Part shown: piece by piece, positions 40,153 through 49,337 of the stretch
Numbering within the stretch: position 1 is the stretch's first letter
Layout: every line of letters begins with the position of its first letter
NCBI RefSeq assembly: GCF_024609325.1
Contig: NZ_JANHMQ010000001.1
Span: forward strand, 1,116,001 to 1,180,000
From: Geothrix fuzhouensis
GTDB lineage: Bacteria > Acidobacteriota > Holophagae > Holophagales > Holophagaceae
Length of the DNA: 64,000 nt
Direction of reading: 5' to 3'
The notes under the pieces: model-generated
What the model saw: the letters and a program-made list of their open reading frames with translations, nothing else
Told to the model about the DNA's origin: nothing
Database searches by the model: none
Translations under genes and position numbers: made by a program

Positions 40153-42399
40153 ATGGCTGCGCGACACTCGAGCATGGCCGTACCTGGGAAAGTCCTGGAG
40201 CCCGTCCTCCGCGAGGGGGAAGGCACGGCTTGCGAAGGGGACAGTTGCCTTACGCTTGAAGGGGCGTTCGACCGTGTGAAGGCGGCCTTCCTGCAGCACC
40301 ACCCCAAGGGGGATGTGGCCCTGCTCCGCCGGGCCTTCACCGTGGGCCGGGACATGCACGCCACCCAGCTCCGGCGGAGTGGCGAGCCCTACTTCTTCCA
40401 TCCCCTGGCCGTGGCCCAGAGCCTGGCGGACTGGCGGCTGGACGCCGCGAGCGTGGCCTGTGGCCTCCTCCACGACGTGGTGGAAGACACCCTCATGACC
40501 CTGCCCCAGGTGAAAGCGCAGTTCGGGGACGAGATCGGCGAGATCGTGGACGGCCTCACGAAGATGAGCAAACTGGCCTTCACGGACAAGCATCTGCTGA
40601 ACGCCGAGAACGTCCGCAAGCTGCTGGTGGCCATGGGCAAGGACGTGCGCGTGCTGCTGGTGAAGCTGGCGGACCGCCTGCACAACATGAAGACCCTGGG
40701 GGTCATGGAGGAGGAGAAGCGCCGCCGGATCTCGCGCGAGACGCTGGAACTTTACGCCCCCCTGGCCAACCGCCTGGGCATGGGGTTGGTGCGCCTGGAG
40801 TTGGAGGATCTGGCCTTCCGCCAGCTGGAACCCGAGCAGTACGAATACCTGAAAAACGCGGTGGAGGCCAAGCGCGCCAAGCTTGCCGGCACCATCCAGG
40901 AGATCCACGGCTCGCTCCAGGCCATCCTCCGCCAGCAGGGCATCAACGCCCACGTCACCGGCCGCGTGAAGCACCTCTACGGCATCTGGAAGAAGATGGG
41001 CGCCCAGGCCAAAGGGTTCGAAGACATCCACGACTGGCTGGCCTACCGCATCATCTGCCCGGACCGGGCCAGCTGCTACACGGCCTTGGGGCTTGTGCAC
41101 GGCCTCTACCGGCCCGTACCCGGCAAGTTCAAGGACTACATCAGCCTGCCCAAGGAGAACGGCTACCAGAGCATCCACACCACCGTGCTGATGAACTCCG
41201 GGGACATCTTCGAGGTGCAGATCCGCACGGAGGAGATGCACCTCCACGCCGAGGCCGGCATCGCCAGCCACTGGACCTACAAGGACGGCCGCATCGCCAA
41301 CCGTCTGGAGATCAACCAAGTGGCCTTCCTCCGGCGCATGGTCGAGCTGCACCAGGACGCCCAGGACAGCCGCGACCTGGTGGCCAACCTGCGTGGTGAG
41401 CTGAACTTCAACCGCATCCAGGTCTTCACACCCAAGGGTGACCTGCGCAGCCTGGTGGAAGGCAGCACGCCCGTGGACTTCGCCTACGCCATCCACACCC
41501 AGGTGGGCCACCGCTGCGTGGGCGCCAAGGTGAACGGGCGCATGGTGCCGCTCAAGCACACCCTCCAGAACGGGGACCGTGTGGAGATCCTCACGCGGCC
41601 CGACCACAAGCCCAGCCGGGACTGGCTGGGCTTCGTCAAGTCCGCCGGCGCCAAGAGCCGCATCCAGGCCTTCATCCGCGAAGAGGAGCGCGCCCACGCC
41701 ATCACCCTGGGCCGTGAGCGGCTGGAGCGCGAGGCCCGCACCATGGGCGTGCGCCTGGACGATCCCGACTCCCAGGCCAAGCTCGAGGCGCGGCTCATCG
41801 AACTCAAACTGGCGAACTGGGATGCCGCCCACGCGTCCCTGGGCTTCGGCCGCCTCACGGTCCACAAGCTCCTTGAGCCCCTGATCCCCGAGCCCGAGCG
41901 CGCCAAGCCCAAGGAAAACGTCTCGAACCTCATGGATTCCGTGGTGGTGGGCGATACCGCCGGCATCCTCTATGCCCTGGCCGCCTGTTGCAAACCCATC
42001 TGGGGCGACGAGGTGGTTGGCTACATCACCCGCACCCGCGGCACCGCCATCCACCGGGCCGACTGTCCCCAGCTGACGAAGGGGACCATGCATCCCGAGC
42101 GCCGCGTGAACGTGGCCTGGGGCAAACACGGGACGGAGCTCTACGACACGGAGATCGCCCTCACCACCGAGGACCGGCCCGGCATGGTGGCCGCCATTTC
42201 CGAAGGCATCCAGCGCGTGGGCATCAACGTACAGCGCTTCCACGGCTCGGCCACGGAGGAGGGCGCCGGCCTCTTCCACATCGCCCTGCGGGTGCGCGAC
42301 CGGACCCACCTCGTGGAGCTCATGGCCAGCCTGCGCCGCATTCGCGGAGTCTACACCGTGGAACGGGTGAAGGGATCCGTGTTCGGGAAGGTGAAATGA
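40153..42399 (+). CDS. Bifunctional (p)ppGpp synthetase/hydrolase (RelA/SpoT)
   Basis: 748 residues from ATG 40153 (ATG 40174 possible). HD hydrolase domain with H83 and H107-D108 (LLHDVVEDT) intact; synthetase domain with FEDIHDWLAYRI, the GKFKDYISLPKENGYQSIHTT segment; then TGS (RIQVFTPKGDLRSLVEGSTPVDFAYAIHT), a zinc-finger/helical region (CCKP) and a C-terminal ACT domain (TTEDRPGMVAAI). Both catalytic halves look complete, so it should make and degrade the stringent alarmone. The NUDIX gene overlaps its stop. The upstream region is a repeat element, so the promoter lies close to or within it. Confidence 0.95.
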   Translation: MAARHSSMAVPGKVLEPVLREGEGTACEGDSCLTLEGAFDRVKAAFLQHHPKGDVALLRRAFTVGRDMHATQLRRSGEPYFFHPLAVAQSLADWRLDAASVACGLLHDVVEDTLMTLPQVKAQFGDEIGEIVDGLTKMSKLAFTDKHLLNAENVRKLLVAMGKDVRVLLVKLADRLHNMKTLGVMEEEKRRRISRETLELYAPLANRLGMGLVRLELEDLAFRQLEPEQYEYLKNAVEAKRAKLAGTIQEIHGSLQAILRQQGINAHVTGRVKHLYGIWKKMGAQAKGFEDIHDWLAYRIICPDRASCYTALGLVHGLYRPVPGKFKDYISLPKENGYQSIHTTVLMNSGDIFEVQIRTEEMHLHAEAGIASHWTYKDGRIANRLEINQVAFLRRMVELHQDAQDSRDLVANLRGELNFNRIQVFTPKGDLRSLVEGSTPVDFAYAIHTQVGHRCVGAKVNGRMVPLKHTLQNGDRVEILTRPDHKPSRDWLGFVKSAGAKSRIQAFIREEERAHAITLGRERLEREARTMGVRLDDPDSQAKLEARLIELKLANWDAAHASLGFGRLTVHKLLEPLIPEPERAKPKENVSNLMDSVVVGDTAGILYALAACCKPIWGDEVVGYITRTRGTAIHRADCPQLTKGTMHPERRVNVAWGKHGTELYDTEIALTTEDRPGMVAAISEGIQRVGINVQRFHGSATEEGAGLFHIALRVRDRTHLVELMASLRRIRGVYTVERVKGSVFGKVK

Positions 42400-43034
42400 G
42401 CACCTGGCGCCCCCCGGCCGAAGCTCCGCCGGTCCCCTGGCCCCGCATCGCGGAAAGCCTGCGGCGGCCACAGCTCGGACCGAACCCGCACAAGATCAGC
42501 GCCCGCATCCCTGAAGATCCCCGGCGCGCGGCGGTGGGGGTGATCCTCTGGGGCGATCCAGCGGGCGCCCGCAAGCTCGTGGTGGCCCAGCGCGGCTACG
42601 GCGCACCCCACCACCCGGGCGAGCTCGCCTTCCCCGGCGGCATGGTGGAGCCCCGCGACCGGGATCTGACCGCCACGGCCCGACGCGAGGTGGCCGAGGA
42701 GATCGGGGTGTCCGAAGGGCTTTGGGAATTGGGTTGTTTCCCCGATGGTGTGGCCAAGGCCCGGGTGCGCTTCACCCCGGTCTTCTTCCGCTGGGAGCAT
42801 CCCGAACCCAGATTTCATCTGGATCACGAGCTGGAACAGGTCCTCATGCTGCCGCTGGCACCCCTCATGGAAGCGCCCTGGACCATCGAGCGGCTTGAGC
42901 GCCACGGCCTGGCCCTGGACGTGCCCAGGCTCGAGCTGCCCCAGGCCCCCTTGTGGGGCGCCACGGCCTTCATCCTCAAGGCCTGGCTGGATGTGCTGAA
43001 GGACTGCTCCGACCTTACTCCGGGCGCAAACTGA
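42396..43034 (+). CDS. NUDIX hydrolase, probable CoA pyrophosphatase
   Basis: 212 residues, starting at an ATG that overlaps the RelA/SpoT stop. NUDIX box about 87-111: GGMVEPRDRD... REVAEEIGV, with the REVAEE catalytic core. Preceding P-G-E-L-A-F-P-G-G matches the CoA-type NUDIX signature (HxGqiaFPGG), so CoA or acyl-CoA diphosphohydrolase activity is favoured. Coupling to the alarmone enzyme is notable because some NUDIX proteins hydrolyse (p)ppGpp, but the CoA-type motif makes that less likely here. Confidence 0.88.
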   Translation: MSTWRPPAEAPPVPWPRIAESLRRPQLGPNPHKISARIPEDPRRAAVGVILWGDPAGARKLVVAQRGYGAPHHPGELAFPGGMVEPRDRDLTATARREVAEEIGVSEGLWELGCFPDGVAKARVRFTPVFFRWEHPEPRFHLDHELEQVLMLPLAPLMEAPWTIERLERHGLALDVPRLELPQAPLWGATAFILKAWLDVLKDCSDLTPGAN

Positions 43035-43162
43035 CGCGCTGGTGGAATCCAGGTACGGAACCTGATCTCTGGGTCGATTGACACCCATCGCCGGCGACCC
43101 TACATTTCCGGCCCGCCCATGCGGCCCCCGCCAGGACCTGCCGTGAGCGCCGCGGAGGAGCC

Positions 43163-43465
43163 ATGATCCTCACCATCCGAAAGACCGGCGGACCTGGGGG
43201 CATCGAAGAGCTGCTCGGCACCGTGGATGCGACCCGGTTCGACGCCGAGTCCCACCGGATCCTCGCCCTCCAGCTGGAGGACTTGACCGACCTGACCAGC
43301 AGCCACGAGCCCATCGATGGCGACTGCTACCGGTACGAGATCGAAGTCCAGGGACCCGGCAAGGCGCGCAATCTCCTGGCCGTGGATGACGAAGGCGATC
43401 CGGATCATCCAGCCTTCAAGGCCCTGACCGCCCTGCTGCGAACCCTCGGCCTGCCCCCGCTTTGA
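43163..43465 (+). CDS. Emfourin-like M4 protease inhibitor
   Basis: 100 residues, no signal peptide. The pattern of an N-terminal strand L-T-I-R-K-T-G-G-P-G-G-I, a middle helix (ALQLEDLTDL), then D-C-Y-R-Y-E-I-E-V and a C-terminal helix (FKALTALLRTL) resembles the emfourin (protealysin inhibitor) family. These cytoplasmic proteins block M4 metallopeptidases and are usually encoded next to one. An M4 protease gene does lie next door (43533-45182), but convergent. GGAGGAG precedes the ATG. The family call rests on pattern and neighbour; moderate confidence. Confidence 0.68.
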   Translation: MILTIRKTGGPGGIEELLGTVDATRFDAESHRILALQLEDLTDLTSSHEPIDGDCYRYEIEVQGPGKARNLLAVDDEGDPDHPAFKALTALLRTLGLPPL

Positions 43466-43478
43466 GCCGGCGCGAAAG

Positions 43479-43515
43479 TGCGCCACGCGGTGGCCCATCG
43501 GCCGCCGCGTGGCGC
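43479..43515. terminator. Hairpin between inhibitor and protease genes
   Basis: GCGCCACGCGG (43480-43490) pairs with CCGCGTGGCGC (43504-43514) around a 13-base loop. It lies in the 67-bp space between two convergent stops and could terminate both transcripts. The T-tracts are poor, so the assignment is moderate. Confidence 0.6.
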
Positions 43516-43532
43516 GTTCTGGACGCTCCGCC

Positions 43533-45182
43533 CTATTTGACGTTCACCGCCAGCCAGGCTGTGTTCACGGTGGCGTACTCGGTGGAACCGGCCCCGTAGA
43601 GATCCGCAGCCGCGTTCAGGGTGGCGACCCGGGCACCCGCGTAGTCGGTGCGCTTGGTCATGTAGACGGTGAGGGCCCGGTACCAGATGCGGCCGGCCTT
43701 GTCGTTGCCGATGCCAGTAATGCTGGTGACGTCGTTGGTCATGGGCGAGGCGATGTTGTCACAGAGGTCGTCCACTTGGCTGCCGTGGGCCAGCAGGAAG
43801 AAGAAATGGTTCGCCACGCCAGAGCTGTAGTGGACATCCAGTCGGCCGAGGGTCTTGCTGTAGAAGTCCGGGCTGCGGCCGTCGCGGCTGGGCTTGTACA
43901 TCCAGCGCAGGGCCTCATTCGGGTAGGCGTGGCCCCAGCTGTTCTCGAACAGCTTGTAGTTGGCAGTGATGGGCCCGGGACCGGCCGTGCTGGGGATGAA
44001 GCTGCCGGTACTGTTGTTCAGAGTGTAGAACTCCACCAGGGTGCCGAAGATGTCTGAATTGGCTTCGTTGAGACCGCCGGACTCCCTGCGGTACTGCAGG
44101 TTGGCAGTGGCTGAGCACACGCCGTGGCTCATCTCGTGGCCCGCGGTATCCAGATCCGCTTCGCCGACAGACCCTCCCACCTGGCCGTCGCCATAGGTCA
44201 TGCAGAAGCAGCTGTCGGACCAGAAGGCGTTGTCGTACTGGCTGCTGTAGTGCATGCGGCTGAAGGTGGCCCGGCCAGCATCGTCGATGCCATCCCGGCT
44301 GAAGGCATTCAGGTAGAAGTCCCAGGTGGCCTGCATGCCCCGGTGGCCATCCACACCCGCGGTCTGGGCGTTCGCGCTCATACCCGGCGTGCCGTTGTAC
44401 TGCAGCCCGTCGCCCCAGGCGTTGTCGGCGTCCGTGAAGATCGTACCTGTGCCCGAGGTGCCGTTGAGCAGGTTGGTCGTGACGTTGTTGTTGAAGGTGC
44501 CACCTGTGCCCCGAGTCATGTCCCGCAGCTCGTAGCCCGTGCCGGTGCTGTTGGTGTTGAGGGTCACCGTCCCGTACCACTGGGACTTGCCCGTTCCGCT
44601 GGCCCCGGCGGTTCGGAGGGTATCCCAGGACTCGAGGATCTTGCCCGAGTGGGCGTCCACCAGGAAGTCCGTGTGTTTGGTCTCCTGGGCGCCGTTCTCC
44701 AACTCGGTGTGGATGTGGTAGGCCAGCACCTGCCGGTTGGCGCGGCCGGGTTCGTTGGCCTCGATGCTGGCCACGACCAGGGTCGCGGTTGGCTCGTAGG
44801 TGTAGCTCCCGCGGGGGGCCAGGGCCGCGTGGGCGGCGGCCAGGGCTTCGGCGCGACCGAGGGTGGGTTCCACGCTCAGGGCCAGCCCGCGGACCAAGTC
44901 ATCCGTGACGGCTCGCACCCGGCCATTCCGGAAGTGGACGATGGCCTCGCCTTCGAGCACGGGAACGCCCTTGTAGGTCTGGTCCAGGCGGACGTGGTCC
45001 TCGCCGAAGGCATCGGCAACCCGATTCTTGAAGGCGAAGCCCAGGTGCTGGTCGAGACCCAGCTGGAAGGCGCGAGCGGTCAGATGGCCCCGGGCCTCCC
45101 GGACGAGGGCATCGGTCCGGGCCTGATCGGGTGGAGCAGCCAACAGGAAGGCAGGAAGGAGGAAGGGAACCAGGTAGCGCAT
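43533..45182 (-). CDS. Secreted M4 (thermolysin-type) metalloprotease
   Basis: 549 residues: signal peptide about 1-16, an FTP/PepSY-type propeptide (about 40-190, with HLGFAFKNRV and TYKGVPVLEGEAIVHF), then the catalytic domain. Zinc ligands H349-E-M-S-H353 and E373 in G-G-L-N-E-A-N-S-D; a later H in YSSGVANHFF fits the active-site His. An extracellular endopeptidase made as a zymogen. GGAGG precedes the ATG. An emfourin-like inhibitor gene is convergent to it. Its upstream region contains an AT-rich block not seen elsewhere in the window. Confidence 0.95.
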   Translation of the reverse strand: MRYLVPFLLPAFLLAAPPDQARTDALVREARGHLTARAFQLGLDQHLGFAFKNRVADAFGEDHVRLDQTYKGVPVLEGEAIVHFRNGRVRAVTDDLVRGLALSVEPTLGRAEALAAAHAALAPRGSYTYEPTATLVVASIEANEPGRANRQVLAYHIHTELENGAQETKHTDFLVDAHSGKILESWDTLRTAGASGTGKSQWYGTVTLNTNSTGTGYELRDMTRGTGGTFNNNVTTNLLNGTSGTGTIFTDADNAWGDGLQYNGTPGMSANAQTAGVDGHRGMQATWDFYLNAFSRDGIDDAGRATFSRMHYSSQYDNAFWSDSCFCMTYGDGQVGGSVGEADLDTAGHEMSHGVCSATANLQYRRESGGLNEANSDIFGTLVEFYTLNNSTGSFIPSTAGPGPITANYKLFENSWGHAYPNEALRWMYKPSRDGRSPDFYSKTLGRLDVHYSSGVANHFFFLLAHGSQVDDLCDNIASPMTNDVTSITGIGNDKAGRIWYRALTVYMTKRTDYAGARVATLNAAADLYGAGSTEYATVNTAWLAVNVK

Positions 45183-45403: not shown

Positions 45404-45643
45404 CTACTTCTTCTCAGCCTTTACCGAGCCGTCCTTGCCCAGGTACTTGTCCGGGTCCTTCTGGAGGGTCGCGCCGCAGGACTTGCTGCACACGCGGTAT
45501 TCCCGGCCCCTGACGACTACGGTGGCGGCCTTGGCATCCACCGTCATCTTGCAGACGGGATCCTTGGTGTTGGTGGCGGGCTTGGCCTTCTCGGGCGCAG
45601 GGGCGGCCAGGACGGCCAGGGTGAGCAGGGCGGTATGAAGCAT
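45404..45643 (-). CDS. Secreted YHS-like metal-binding protein (paralog 1)
   Basis: 79 residues: signal peptide about 1-17, then a YHS-type unit D-P-V-C-K-M (metal-binding start), V-V-V-R-G-R-E-Y-R-V-C and C-G-A-T-L-Q-K-D-P-D-K-Y-L. The cysteines C31, C52 and C56 (roughly) could hold copper or another soft metal in the periplasm. Last gene of the minus-strand efflux operon. Clearly paralogous to the preceding gene: both share KPATNTK, a VRG-EYR segment, C-x-x-x-C/C-x-x-C spacing, PDKYL and a KDG-K tail. Confidence 0.8.
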   Translation of the reverse strand: MLHTALLTLAVLAAPAPEKAKPATNTKDPVCKMTVDAKAATVVVRGREYRVCSKSCGATLQKDPDKYLGKDGSVKAEKK

Positions 45644-45674
45644 ATGACCTCCGGGTAATATTCTAGTCTATCCA

Positions 45675-45902
45675 CTATTTCTTGGCGTTTTTCGGTGTGC
45701 CGTCCTTTTCGAGGTACTTGTCTGGGTTCTTCAGCAGGGTCGCGTCGCAGCCACCACAGCAGAGGCGGTATTCCTGGCCGCGAACCGCCACGGTCTTGGA
45801 CTTTTCGCTCACCTTGCCCCCCAGGACGGGGCACTTGGTGTTCGTGGCGGGCTTGGCTTGGGGGCTGGCGGCGATGGCCAGGGTCAGCAGAAGGTTGAGC
45901 AT
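45675..45902 (-). CDS. Secreted YHS-like metal-binding protein (paralog 2)
   Basis: 75 residues: signal peptide about 1-16, then N-T-K-C-P-V-L-G-G, V-A-V-R-G-Q-E-Y-R-L-C-C-G-G-C and N-P-D-K-Y-L-E-K-D-G. Compared with the next gene, the DPVCKM start has become KCPVLGG and the cysteine pair is CCGGC, so its metal site is altered. 31 bp separate the two genes and 114 bp separate it from cusA on the same strand. A periplasmic metal-binding accessory is the likely role. Confidence 0.78.
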   Translation of the reverse strand: MLNLLLTLAIAASPQAKPATNTKCPVLGGKVSEKSKTVAVRGQEYRLCCGGCDATLLKNPDKYLEKDGTPKNAKK

Positions 45903-46016
45903 GGGAGGTCCTTGTGCAATGGTCGGCCCGTGAAGCGTCGGCGGAACCTGGGCCGTTTGTGGGCACCGCCGTGGGGAGCAATCGGGAAGTCACGAGCAGG
46001 TATGCCTTTCAAGGCG

Positions 46017-49000
46017 TCAGACCGGTTCCGGTACGGGTTCAGGCGTGACTGGGCCTTCCACCACCTCCTTGCGCTTCCAGAGGTAGTAGATGGAGGGATA
46101 GACCAGCAGTTCGAGCAGGAAGCTGGTGGCCAGGCCGCCCACCATGGGCGCGGCAATGCGCTTCATGACGTCGGCGCCGGTACCCGTACTCCACATGATG
46201 GGGAGCAGGCCCATGAAGGCCGCGAAGACGGTCATAGCCTTGGGACGCACGCGCTTCACGGCCCCGTGGATGATGGCCTCCACCAGGTCGCCCGTGGTGT
46301 TCAGGCGGCCTTCCTTCCGGGCCTCGTCGTGGCTGAGGTCCAGGAAGAGCAGCATGAAGACGCCGGTCTCCGCATCGAGCCCCATGAGGGCGATGAGGCC
46401 CACCCACACGGCGATGCTCATGTTGTAGCCGAGCAGCCACAGAAGCCAGAAGGCGCCGATGGCGCTGAAGGGCACGGCCAGCATCACGACCGAGGCCTTG
46501 AAGGCGCTCTTGGTGTTGGCGTAGAGCAGACCGAAGATCAGCACCAGGGTGATGGGCAGGATGATCTTCAGGCGTTCTTTCACGCGGATCATGTTTTCGT
46601 ACTGTCCTGACCAGGTGAGGCTGTAGCCCGCGGGGAGCTTGAGCTCCTTCTCCACCGCGGCCTTGGCCCGCTGGACGTAGGTGCCCACGTCCAGCTTCGA
46701 CGTGTCGAAATCCACCAGCACGTACCCGTTCATCTGGCCGTTCTCGTCGCGGATCATGGCAGGGCCATTGGTCCACTGCAGGTCCGCGATCTCCTCCATG
46801 GGCACCAGGGCGCCCGTCGGCGTGGGGACGAGAACCCGCTTCAAGGCATCGGGACTTTCGCGGTAGTCCCGGGCGTAACGCACATTCACGGGGTACCGGG
46901 CCCGACCGTCGTAGACCGTGCTCTGGTTGTCGCCGCCCACGGCGGTCATCACCAGCATGTTGGCCTGCTCGACGCTGAGGCCGTAGCGGGCCAGCTGGTC
47001 CCGCTTCAGCACGAAATCCAGGAAGTAGCCCTGGGCCGTGCGTTCCGCGAAGGCGCTGCGGGTTCCGGGAACGCCCGACAGGATGCGCTCCGCTTCCACG
47101 GCGACCTTCTGGATAGTGTCCAGGTCCGCGCCGTTGATCTTGAGGCCCACGGGCGTGCGGATGCCGGTGGACAGCATGTCCTGCCGCGCCTTGATGGGCA
47201 TGGTCCAGGCGTTGGGGATGGCCGGGAGTTTCACCACGCGGTCCAGCTCGGCGACGATCTCCTCCTGGGTGATGCGATCCCGCCACACCGGGCGCAGGAC
47301 GGCCTTCAGGAAATCCGGGGCCCAGGCGCTGAACCAGCGGGGCTTCTCGCGCCACTGGTCCTCGGGCTTCAAGGTGATCACCGTCTCCATCATGGAGAAG
47401 GGCGCGGGGTCCGTGGACGTGTCGGCCCGTCCAGCCTTGCCGAAGACGCCCGCCACTTCCGGCACGGTGCGGATCAGGCGGTCCTGCACCTGGAGGATGC
47501 GCTGGGCCTCGGTCTGGCTTAGACCCGGCAGCGTCGAGGGCATGTAAAGCAGCGTCCCTTCGTTCAGCGGCGGCATGAACTCGCTGCCCAGGCTCATGAA
47601 GGCAGGGATCGTGGCCAGCACCAGCAACACAGCTACGCCGATGGTCGCCTTGGCATGCTTCACCACGAAGCGGCAGGGCCCCTCGTAGATCCGGTGCAGG
47701 AAGACGCTGATGGGATGCCTTTCCTCCGCGTAGTACTTCCCGACGGCCAGCTGGGTGAAGGTCCAGGCCAGCCACCTCGGCTTGAACTGGAAGGGTTCGA
47801 TGCGCGCGAAGAGCATGCGCATGGCCGGATCCAGGGTCAGCGCCAGGAGCGCGGCGATGCCCATGGCGAAGTTCTTGGAGAAAGCCAGGGGCTTGAACAA
47901 CCGCCCTTCCTGGTCCACCAGCGTGAAGATGGGCAGGAAGCTCACCGCCACCACCAGCAGGGAGAAGAAGACGCTCGGCCCCACCTCCATCAAGGCTTCG
48001 AGCCTGATGTGGTAGAAGCTCCCGGGTTTTCCGGCCGCGATCCACCGTTCGATCTTCTTGTAGGCGTTCTCCACTTCGACGATGGCTCCGTCCACCAGCA
48101 CGCCGATGGATATGGCGATGCCGGCGAGGCTCATGAGGTTGGCGTTCTGGCCGATGCCGTACATCGGGATGAACGCGAGCGCCACGCTCACCGGAATGGT
48201 GATGATGGGCACGATGGCCGAGGGCACGTGCCAGAGGAAGATCAGAATGATGATCGAAACGACGATCATCTCCTCGATGAGCTTGTGTTTCACCGTCTTG
48301 ATGGCGTGGTGGATCAGCTCGGAGCGGTCGTAGACCGTGACCACTTCCACGCCCTCGGGGAGCCCCTGCTTCAGTTCGTTGATCTTCGTCTTCACGCGTT
48401 CGATCACGTTCAGGGCATTTTCACCCTGGCGCATCACCACGATGCCGCCGACCACGTCCCCCTGGCCGTCCAGGTCCGTGAGGCCCCGGCGCATCTCGGG
48501 CCCCAAGGTCACCGTGGCCACCTCGCCCAGGCGCACCGGCGTGCCGTTCTCGGCCTTGAGCACCGCCTGTTCGAGATCATGGGTGGTCTTCACGTAGCCG
48601 CGGCCCCGGACCATGTACTCGCGCCCGCTGTACTCCACCAGGCGTCCGCCGACCTCCGAATTGGCCGACTTGACGGCACCGATGACGGAATCGATGGGGA
48701 TCCGGTAGGCCGCCAGTTTGTTGGGATCGACCTGGACCTGGAACTGCCGGGCCTGGCCGCCCACCGTGGCCACCTCAGCCACCCCGGGCGTGCTTTGGAT
48801 GGAGTAGCGGAGGAACCAATCCTGCAGCGACCTCAGCTCATCCGTGCTGTGCTTCCCGCTGTGATCCACCAGGGCGTACTGGTAGATCCAACCCACGGAG
48901 GTGGCGTCAGGACCGATGACCGGCGTCACGCCAGGAGGCAGGCTCGACGTGATCTTGCTGAGGTACTCCAGCGTGCGGGATCGGGCCCAGTAGATGTCCG

Positions 49001-49337
49001 TGCCGTCCTCGTAGATGACATAGACATAAGAGAATCCGAAATCCGACAGGGCGCGGACCGCCTTCACCTTCGGCGCGCCGAGCAGCGCCGTGACGATGGG
49101 GTAGGTCACCTGGTCCTCGACGATGTCGGGGCTCCGGTCCCACTTGGTGTAGACGATCACCTGGGTGTCGCTGAGATCCGGCAGGGCATCCAGCGGGATG
49201 TTCCGCATGGTCCAGAAGGACATGGCGATCAACACCACCGAGGCGGCCATCACCAGCCAGCGGTTCTCCGCCGAGAAGCGGATGATCCGCTGGAGGAAAG
49301 TCGGGTGTTCGGGGTCGTAGCCCACGTGTGCGCTCAT
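46017..49337 (-). CDS. cusA: CusA/CzcA-type heavy-metal RND efflux pump
   Basis: 1106 residues, inner-membrane proton-driven pump of the HME-RND family with 12 transmembrane helices and two large periplasmic loops. The segments DIYWARSRTLEYL, GPDATSVGWIYQYALVDHSGKH and VGPEMRRG-like LGPEMRRGLTDLDGQGDVVGG are much closer to the Cu(I)/Ag(I) CusA branch than to CzcA. An extra C-terminal tail ends in PEPVPEPV. GAGGGGG before the ATG; 10 bp after the cusB stop. Extrudes metal from the periplasm or cytoplasm through CusB/CusC. Confidence 0.94.
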   Translation of the reverse strand: MSAHVGYDPEHPTFLQRIIRFSAENRWLVMAASVVLIAMSFWTMRNIPLDALPDLSDTQVIVYTKWDRSPDIVEDQVTYPIVTALLGAPKVKAVRALSDFGFSYVYVIYEDGTDIYWARSRTLEYLSKITSSLPPGVTPVIGPDATSVGWIYQYALVDHSGKHSTDELRSLQDWFLRYSIQSTPGVAEVATVGGQARQFQVQVDPNKLAAYRIPIDSVIGAVKSANSEVGGRLVEYSGREYMVRGRGYVKTTHDLEQAVLKAENGTPVRLGEVATVTLGPEMRRGLTDLDGQGDVVGGIVVMRQGENALNVIERVKTKINELKQGLPEGVEVVTVYDRSELIHHAIKTVKHKLIEEMIVVSIIILIFLWHVPSAIVPIITIPVSVALAFIPMYGIGQNANLMSLAGIAISIGVLVDGAIVEVENAYKKIERWIAAGKPGSFYHIRLEALMEVGPSVFFSLLVVAVSFLPIFTLVDQEGRLFKPLAFSKNFAMGIAALLALTLDPAMRMLFARIEPFQFKPRWLAWTFTQLAVGKYYAEERHPISVFLHRIYEGPCRFVVKHAKATIGVAVLLVLATIPAFMSLGSEFMPPLNEGTLLYMPSTLPGLSQTEAQRILQVQDRLIRTVPEVAGVFGKAGRADTSTDPAPFSMMETVITLKPEDQWREKPRWFSAWAPDFLKAVLRPVWRDRITQEEIVAELDRVVKLPAIPNAWTMPIKARQDMLSTGIRTPVGLKINGADLDTIQKVAVEAERILSGVPGTRSAFAERTAQGYFLDFVLKRDQLARYGLSVEQANMLVMTAVGGDNQSTVYDGRARYPVNVRYARDYRESPDALKRVLVPTPTGALVPMEEIADLQWTNGPAMIRDENGQMNGYVLVDFDTSKLDVGTYVQRAKAAVEKELKLPAGYSLTWSGQYENMIRVKERLKIILPITLVLIFGLLYANTKSAFKASVVMLAVPFSAIGAFWLLWLLGYNMSIAVWVGLIALMGLDAETGVFMLLFLDLSHDEARKEGRLNTTGDLVEAIIHGAVKRVRPKAMTVFAAFMGLLPIMWSTGTGADVMKRIAAPMVGGLATSFLLELLVYPSIYYLWKRKEVVEGPVTPEPVPEPV

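Follow-up and report, generated by a model that had tools for sequence, protein, structure and literature searches.

Is the small gene that faces the gene of an exported-type M4 metallopeptidase in a Geothrix genome an emfourin gene, and if so, does its product serve the protease next door? The question is raised by a window of 64,000 nt (the whole stretch of DNA that was analysed), taken from a 3.3 Mb Geothrix genome (Holophagaceae, Acidobacteriota). Emfourin is familiar as the inhibitor encoded in a protealysin operon, and the original prediction for this locus was an emfourin that acts as a dedicated cytoplasmic guard of its neighbour, with control of the two genes by antisense overlap of their 3' ends. 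The reading that we favour, tentatively and a little short of an even chance, is that the small protein, a divergent emfourin homologue with a promoter-like site of its own, would act in the cytoplasm as a standing safeguard against M4 activity in the wrong compartment and would not be the dedicated partner of its neighbour.

A small protein without a signal peptide facing an exported-type protease

The small gene (43163..43465, + strand; ATG start, TGA stop) encodes a protein of 100 aa, which begins MILTIRKTGGPGGIEELLG, and the protease gene (43533..45182, - strand; ATG start, TAG stop) encodes one of 549 aa. The two open reading frames face each other with a stop-to-stop distance of 67 nt, so the convergent, non-operonic layout that had been predicted is confirmed. 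The gap also holds the predicted hairpin, with a 17-bp stem and a 4-nt loop (43479..43516, strand not assigned; arms 43479-43495 and 43500-43516). The syntenic anchor upstream of the small gene (42396..43034, + strand) is NUDIX-like by our own reading of the sequence, made without a profile search; the other syntenic flank (45404..45643, - strand) is presumably the gene of a small YHS-like protein, a name likewise given without a profile search. Together with a second short gene, which we also take to be YHS-like, and an efflux pump gene, which we take to be CusA-like, it forms a conserved flank of the locus (45404-49337 in the window).

Three Pfam families match the 549-aa protein above their cut-offs, FTP (E = 1.1e-11), Peptidase_M4 (E = 2.5e-35, with the HEMSH motif) and M4_C (E = 2.9e-44, with NEANSD), and a PepSY match lies below the cut-off. 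Hydropathy over 12 residues peaks at 2.43 at residue 4, as is typical of a signal peptide. These data agree with the motifs, signal peptide and propeptide that had been claimed for this gene. The combination of HExxH, the distal Glu, the M4 and M4_C domains, a propeptide of FTP/PepSY-like type and an export signal (by hydropathy) is that of a thermolysin-type M4 enzyme; neither the PLN propeptide (PF16485) nor the lack of a signal peptide, which mark protealysin-like enzymes, was found in the 549-aa protein. Over the stretch examined, the small protein reaches a hydropathy maximum of only 0.88 at residue 33 and has no signal-like N-terminus, as predicted. Signal peptides were called from hydropathy alone for both proteins, without a signal-peptide program. 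The mismatch in compartment between a small protein without a signal and a protease of exported type is real. The genome of the window has three M4_C matches, each in a long protein whose N-terminus is signal-like.

Homology and predicted fold of the small protein

At E ≤ 1 the only Pfam family matched by the small protein is Emfourin (PF20242; E = 0.016), and the score of 16 bits is below the cut-off of 27; no NCBIfam family is matched. The predicted identity therefore fails as a direct profile hit and stands as homology through orthologues, chiefly a protein of genome G053 (E = 9.4e-11, 35% identity to the window protein) that itself passes the Emfourin profile with 44.6 bits. Assignment to another family would have told against the prediction; in Pfam the small protein matches Emfourin only, below the cut-off. 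Its orthologues in the genus score 24.8 (G011), 21.8 (G005), 20.8 (G006) and 13.5 bits (G013), and the G025 protein has no Emfourin match at E ≤ 1, so that five of the six genus proteins scanned lie between 13.5 and 24.8 bits, all below the cut-off. Homologues of the window protein are present in eight of the 77 genomes of the family, its own included, and a profile built from seven homologues found the same eight among 93 genomes of the class; PF20242 is matched above its cut-off in one of the 77, G053. The sequence evidence thus supports the small protein as a divergent emfourin at the level of homology.

Met1, Gly10, Asp22 and Leu88 are invariant in a 16-row alignment. Emfourin contacts the catalytic zinc of its target by way of an Asp, a second, hydrophobic loop also being involved. 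The GGFA turn has its Phe in the Serratia prototype and in seven of the 10 rows of a further alignment (A2), the other three having Leu or Ile. In the window protein the turn reads GGPG, with the Gly pair kept and Phe replaced by Pro, and the other five genus rows aligned have Pro or Ser at this position; the Geothrix emfourins also share a clade-specific DLTSSHEP-like segment. Replacement of GGF(A) by GGP may mean altered or lost activity.

The AlphaFold2 model of the window protein, made from the 16-row alignment (pLDDT 86.4), has the element order β-β-α-β-β-α, the same as in a control model of the protealysin-linked emfourin of genome G262 (pLDDT 85.8). The two predictions thus agree in fold, the control being a canonical emfourin. 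With VIA-align the window model gives a weak match to the solved emfourin structure (6zyg; Z = 4.2, r.m.s.d. 6.4, 80 aligned residues, rank 10) and the control model a similar one (Z = 5.3, r.m.s.d. 5.0, 79 aligned residues, rank 9), surrounded by the same kinds of chain. For both models eight Mago-nashi chains rank above 6zyg, so the fold match is not specific and the Z values are middling. SSI-type inhibitors are also among the matches. For the two emfourin models the best Z values are 5.9 and 8.5 with Mago nashi and 4.4 and 4.5 with SSI-type protease inhibitors, a likeness that may reflect only a common arrangement of elements. Searches of solved structures with single emfourin sequences did not have 6zyg among their matches, profile searches placed it weakly (E = 1.4, 1.1 and 0.34) beneath unrelated chains, and Foldseek gave nothing at E ≤ 0.001, 6zyg being absent from the best 50 rows listed.

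Linkage, promoter and selection in the genus

The order of the locus (MTase, RelA, NUDIX, emfourin where present, M4 where present, YHS, YHS, CusA, the names other than emfourin and M4 being our own reading) is widely syntenic in the genus. We examined 47 genus genomes and kept 40, having dropped seven for a missing or partial NUDIX match (G014, G019, G024, G036; G022, G027, G031). Both genes are present at the locus, convergently, in four genomes (G000, G005, G006 and G011), the emfourin gene only in three (G013, G023 and G025), the M4 gene only in 10 (G004, G007, G008, G009, G010, G012, G020, G026, G029 and G049) and neither in 23, of which 20 have an M4 gene elsewhere (E ≤ 1e-20); absence of both was scored by tblastn, and some stretches end soon after NUDIX (e.g. 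G040). The co-occurrence is not significant (4/3/10/23, Fisher P = 0.21). The protease at the locus is without an emfourin in 10 of 14 genomes (two of them, G009 and G026, less than 65% complete), and the emfourin is without an adjacent protease in three of seven. This is where the predicted dedicated guard loses ground: comparison among genomes speaks against an obligate pair, and it does not support the guard and antisense ideas, which are possible but unlikely. With relatives often keeping one gene without the other, the two look more like neighbours than like an obligate pair; the linkage is loose.

The tree of RelA plus NUDIX supports the emfourin-only clade (98/94); the remaining 37 genus genomes are joined by a fork with 80/97 that is drawn open, and an early branching of this clade is therefore not firm. 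The paired genomes are scattered among protease-only ones. In four independent pairs that differ in the emfourin, the protease is unchanged in 3.7 on average, changes the same way in 0.2 and the opposite way in 0.1, a comparison of little power. Equal-cost parsimony needs four changes for each gene, with which repeated gain and repeated loss are both compatible. Sharp recombination of an emfourin cassette was considered and rejected, identity along the locus showing no clear step; the G006 emfourin is about as close to that of G000 as its flanks are, the G011 emfourin less so. Two protease-only genomes carry a stretch of ~300-400 nt between NUDIX and M4 (L061:5563-5960 in G049 and L063:5382-5685 in G012) with inverted ends (GAGTGCCTAACAAA / TTTGTTAGGCACTC), which looks like a miniature mobile element.

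A sigma-70-like promoter candidate (43078..43106, + strand; TTGACA, 17 nt, TACATT) with 10 of 12 consensus matches lies 56 nt upstream of the emfourin ATG. TTGACA with a 17-nt spacer recurs 49-62 nt before the ATG in all seven emfourin loci of the genus, four with and three without an M4 gene, and is followed by TACATT in four loci, CACATT in G025 and G023 and CACCTT in G013. The emfourin gene therefore looks like its own transcription unit even where no M4 gene adjoins it. The 73-nt stretch that includes the hairpin has a folding energy of -47.9 kcal/mol, a stability reached by none of 200 shuffles (z = -4.2), and the long hairpin is found in three of the four paired genomes, with counterparts in G005 (-51.6 kcal/mol, per stretch) and G006 (-66.0); G011 has a shorter, different hairpin between the stops (-13.6). 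A terminator scan of the gap gave no hit that had both a hairpin and a T tract, and a role as terminator is therefore plausible only. The predicted 3' antisense overlap control is not supported here, with a promoter of the emfourin's own kept in both settings and the long hairpin lacking in G011.

For the emfourin gene, comparison of the four paired genomes gives Nei-Gojobori dN/dS ratios of 0.13-0.28; G013 against G025 or G023 gives 0.31-0.32, the near-identical G023 and G025 give 0.37, and comparisons across the two clades give 0.38-0.55. The neighbours have 0.08-0.19 (M4) and 0.08-0.26 (NUDIX). By these ratios the emfourin gene is under purifying selection, looser than that on its neighbours, and the rise across clades could be due either to a changed partner or to saturation of dS.

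Emfourins elsewhere in the phylum and explanations of the locus

PF20242 is matched above its cut-off in 17 of 396 genomes of the phylum, 16 without G053. At E ≤ 0.1 the PLN propeptide of protealysin type was detected in 15 of these 16 and in none of the eight emfourin genomes of the window's family, that of the window included. The test is coarse, since the profile is short and few matches exceed its cut-off (six of the 24 genomes have such a match, and in G102, G211 and G270 even the best one has an E value above 0.01). The M4 enzymes of the eight family genomes point the same way: each has at least one, and all 25 M4_C matches lie in open frames of 559-1187 aa. By coordinates, an M4 gene adjoins the emfourin gene on its own strand in 10 of the 16, and in nine of these 10 the M4 frame has 351-396 aa with a PLN match (G315, G262, G376, G102, G199, G104, G322, G211 and G338). 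G308 is the tenth; its adjacent M4 sits in a frame of 702 aa for which no PLN match is listed, and its PLN matches fall in other M4 genes. The PLN match of G253 is at the end of a contig, on the strand that carries the emfourin, and this genome gives no M4_C match; in G156, G241, G189 and G270 emfourin and M4 genes are on different contigs. In 11 genomes an M4_C match shares the contig of the emfourin, and in none of them are the two genes convergent. With a same-strand PLN partner common though not universal elsewhere, the layout in the window is unusual in being convergent, in its signal-like partner and in the lack of a detected protealysin-like enzyme.

Two other loci have features of their own. 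In G312, another of the 16 (L158:4804-5253, contig C472), the emfourin-like domain has an N-terminus that resembles a signal peptide and follows, ~0.85 kb downstream on the same strand, the gene of a 992-aa M4 enzyme (HEISHG), possibly an exported emfourin with an exported protease. In G053 (L023:7317-9105) the emfourin gene follows the gene of a 476-aa metallopeptidase (HETGH...GLHEAFGD), which matches no Pfam family above cut-off, after 52 nt on the same strand; no relative of this tandem protease was found in the genome of the window at E ≤ 0.01, in a search without a positive control.

Direct convergent adjacency in four genomes would be expected if the emfourin specifically inhibited the neighbouring M4 enzyme until it is exported, and if the hairpin and the opposed transcription tied the expression of the two genes together. 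By our own estimate such adjacency is rare by chance (~0.2%, from three M4 genes among ~3000), and the accessible part of PMC9505478 describes emfourins as often adjoining an M4 gene. Between paired and unpaired genomes dN also rises more for the emfourin (0.318 for G000-G013, 0.123 for G000-G011) than for NUDIX (0.119 and 0.065), as a change of partner might give. We nevertheless regard a specific guard as unlikely: the co-occurrence of the two genes at the locus is not significant (and the independent pairs, mostly without a difference in protease, have little power), the emfourin also has its own promoter in the clade without the M4 gene, the long hairpin is not kept in G011, and the final products belong to different compartments. 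An emfourin that shields the cytoplasm from protealysin-like proteases delivered by competitors would need no partner at home, and it would fit the missing PLN propeptides, the patchy presence, the own promoter and the cytoplasmic location; an immunity role for emfourins is proposed in that same part of PMC9505478. Such immunity seems rather improbable to us, as the adjacency to M4 would then be coincidence and the turn has changed from GGF to GGP. That change, found as Pro or Ser in all six genus rows aligned, together with the sub-cut-off or missing Pfam matches and the clade-specific segment, could also mean that the Geothrix clade no longer binds proteases and has taken on another role, which we consider distinctly unlikely with Gly10 and Asp22 invariant, the overall predicted fold retained and the convergent M4 linkage present in four genomes.

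According to the safeguard reading that we favour, the emfourin would be made alone and presumably constitutively from a housekeeping-type promoter, would stay in the cytoplasm, having no signal-like N-terminus, and would most likely still bind proteases of thermolysin fold. It would act on any of the cell's own exported M4 enzymes, three in this genome, when molecules of them fail to be exported or are mis-sorted. Sec-exported zymogens are normally kept unfolded and inhibited by their propeptides, and this may leave a cytoplasmic inhibitor with little to act on. The 10 protease-locus genomes and the 23 with neither gene, 20 of them with M4 elsewhere, do without an emfourin at the locus, which also speaks against a safeguard, as does the altered turn.

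It is possible, if doubtful, that an emfourin clade has lost both the protealysin-like partner and the canonical turn residue and is now either an orphan, constitutive immunity protein of the cytoplasm or an inhibitor re-aimed at exported proteases of thermolysin type. If true, this would separate emfourins from protease operons. A branch of emfourins under selection in genomes without a detected protealysin-like protease offers a natural test of two questions: whether the family regulates from within an operon or stands alone for immunity or as a safeguard, and which of its residues determine the target. A limited literature search, of sources available in part, found no treatment of Acidobacteriota emfourins. 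Work on emfourin in Int J Biol Macromol (2021) is cited in PMC9505478, and its NMR structure in J Biol Chem (2023) in PMC12844201; in the portions available, PMC12844201 names emfourin and the Acidobacteria genome paper PMC8841776 protealysin in a reference only.

Among known systems, the G053 emfourin is the nearest homologue above the Pfam cut-off and belongs to the same family, and differs in its same-strand, closely spaced protease of no recognized Pfam family. The emfourins beside protealysin-like M4 genes in nine other Acidobacteriota genomes are of the same protein family and likewise adjoin a protease of M4 fold, which there is a short same-strand enzyme with PLN, whereas that of the window is convergent, 549 aa long and of thermolysin type with a signal-like N-terminus. 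Emfourin (M4in) of Serratia proteamaculans (6zyg, PF20242) resembles the window protein in size, the lack of a signal peptide, the GG turn and linkage to an M4 gene, with a weak structural match (Z = 4.2); the window locus differs from it in its convergent layout, its own promoter, the absence of a detected protealysin propeptide, GGPG in place of GGFA and a Pfam score below the cut-off.
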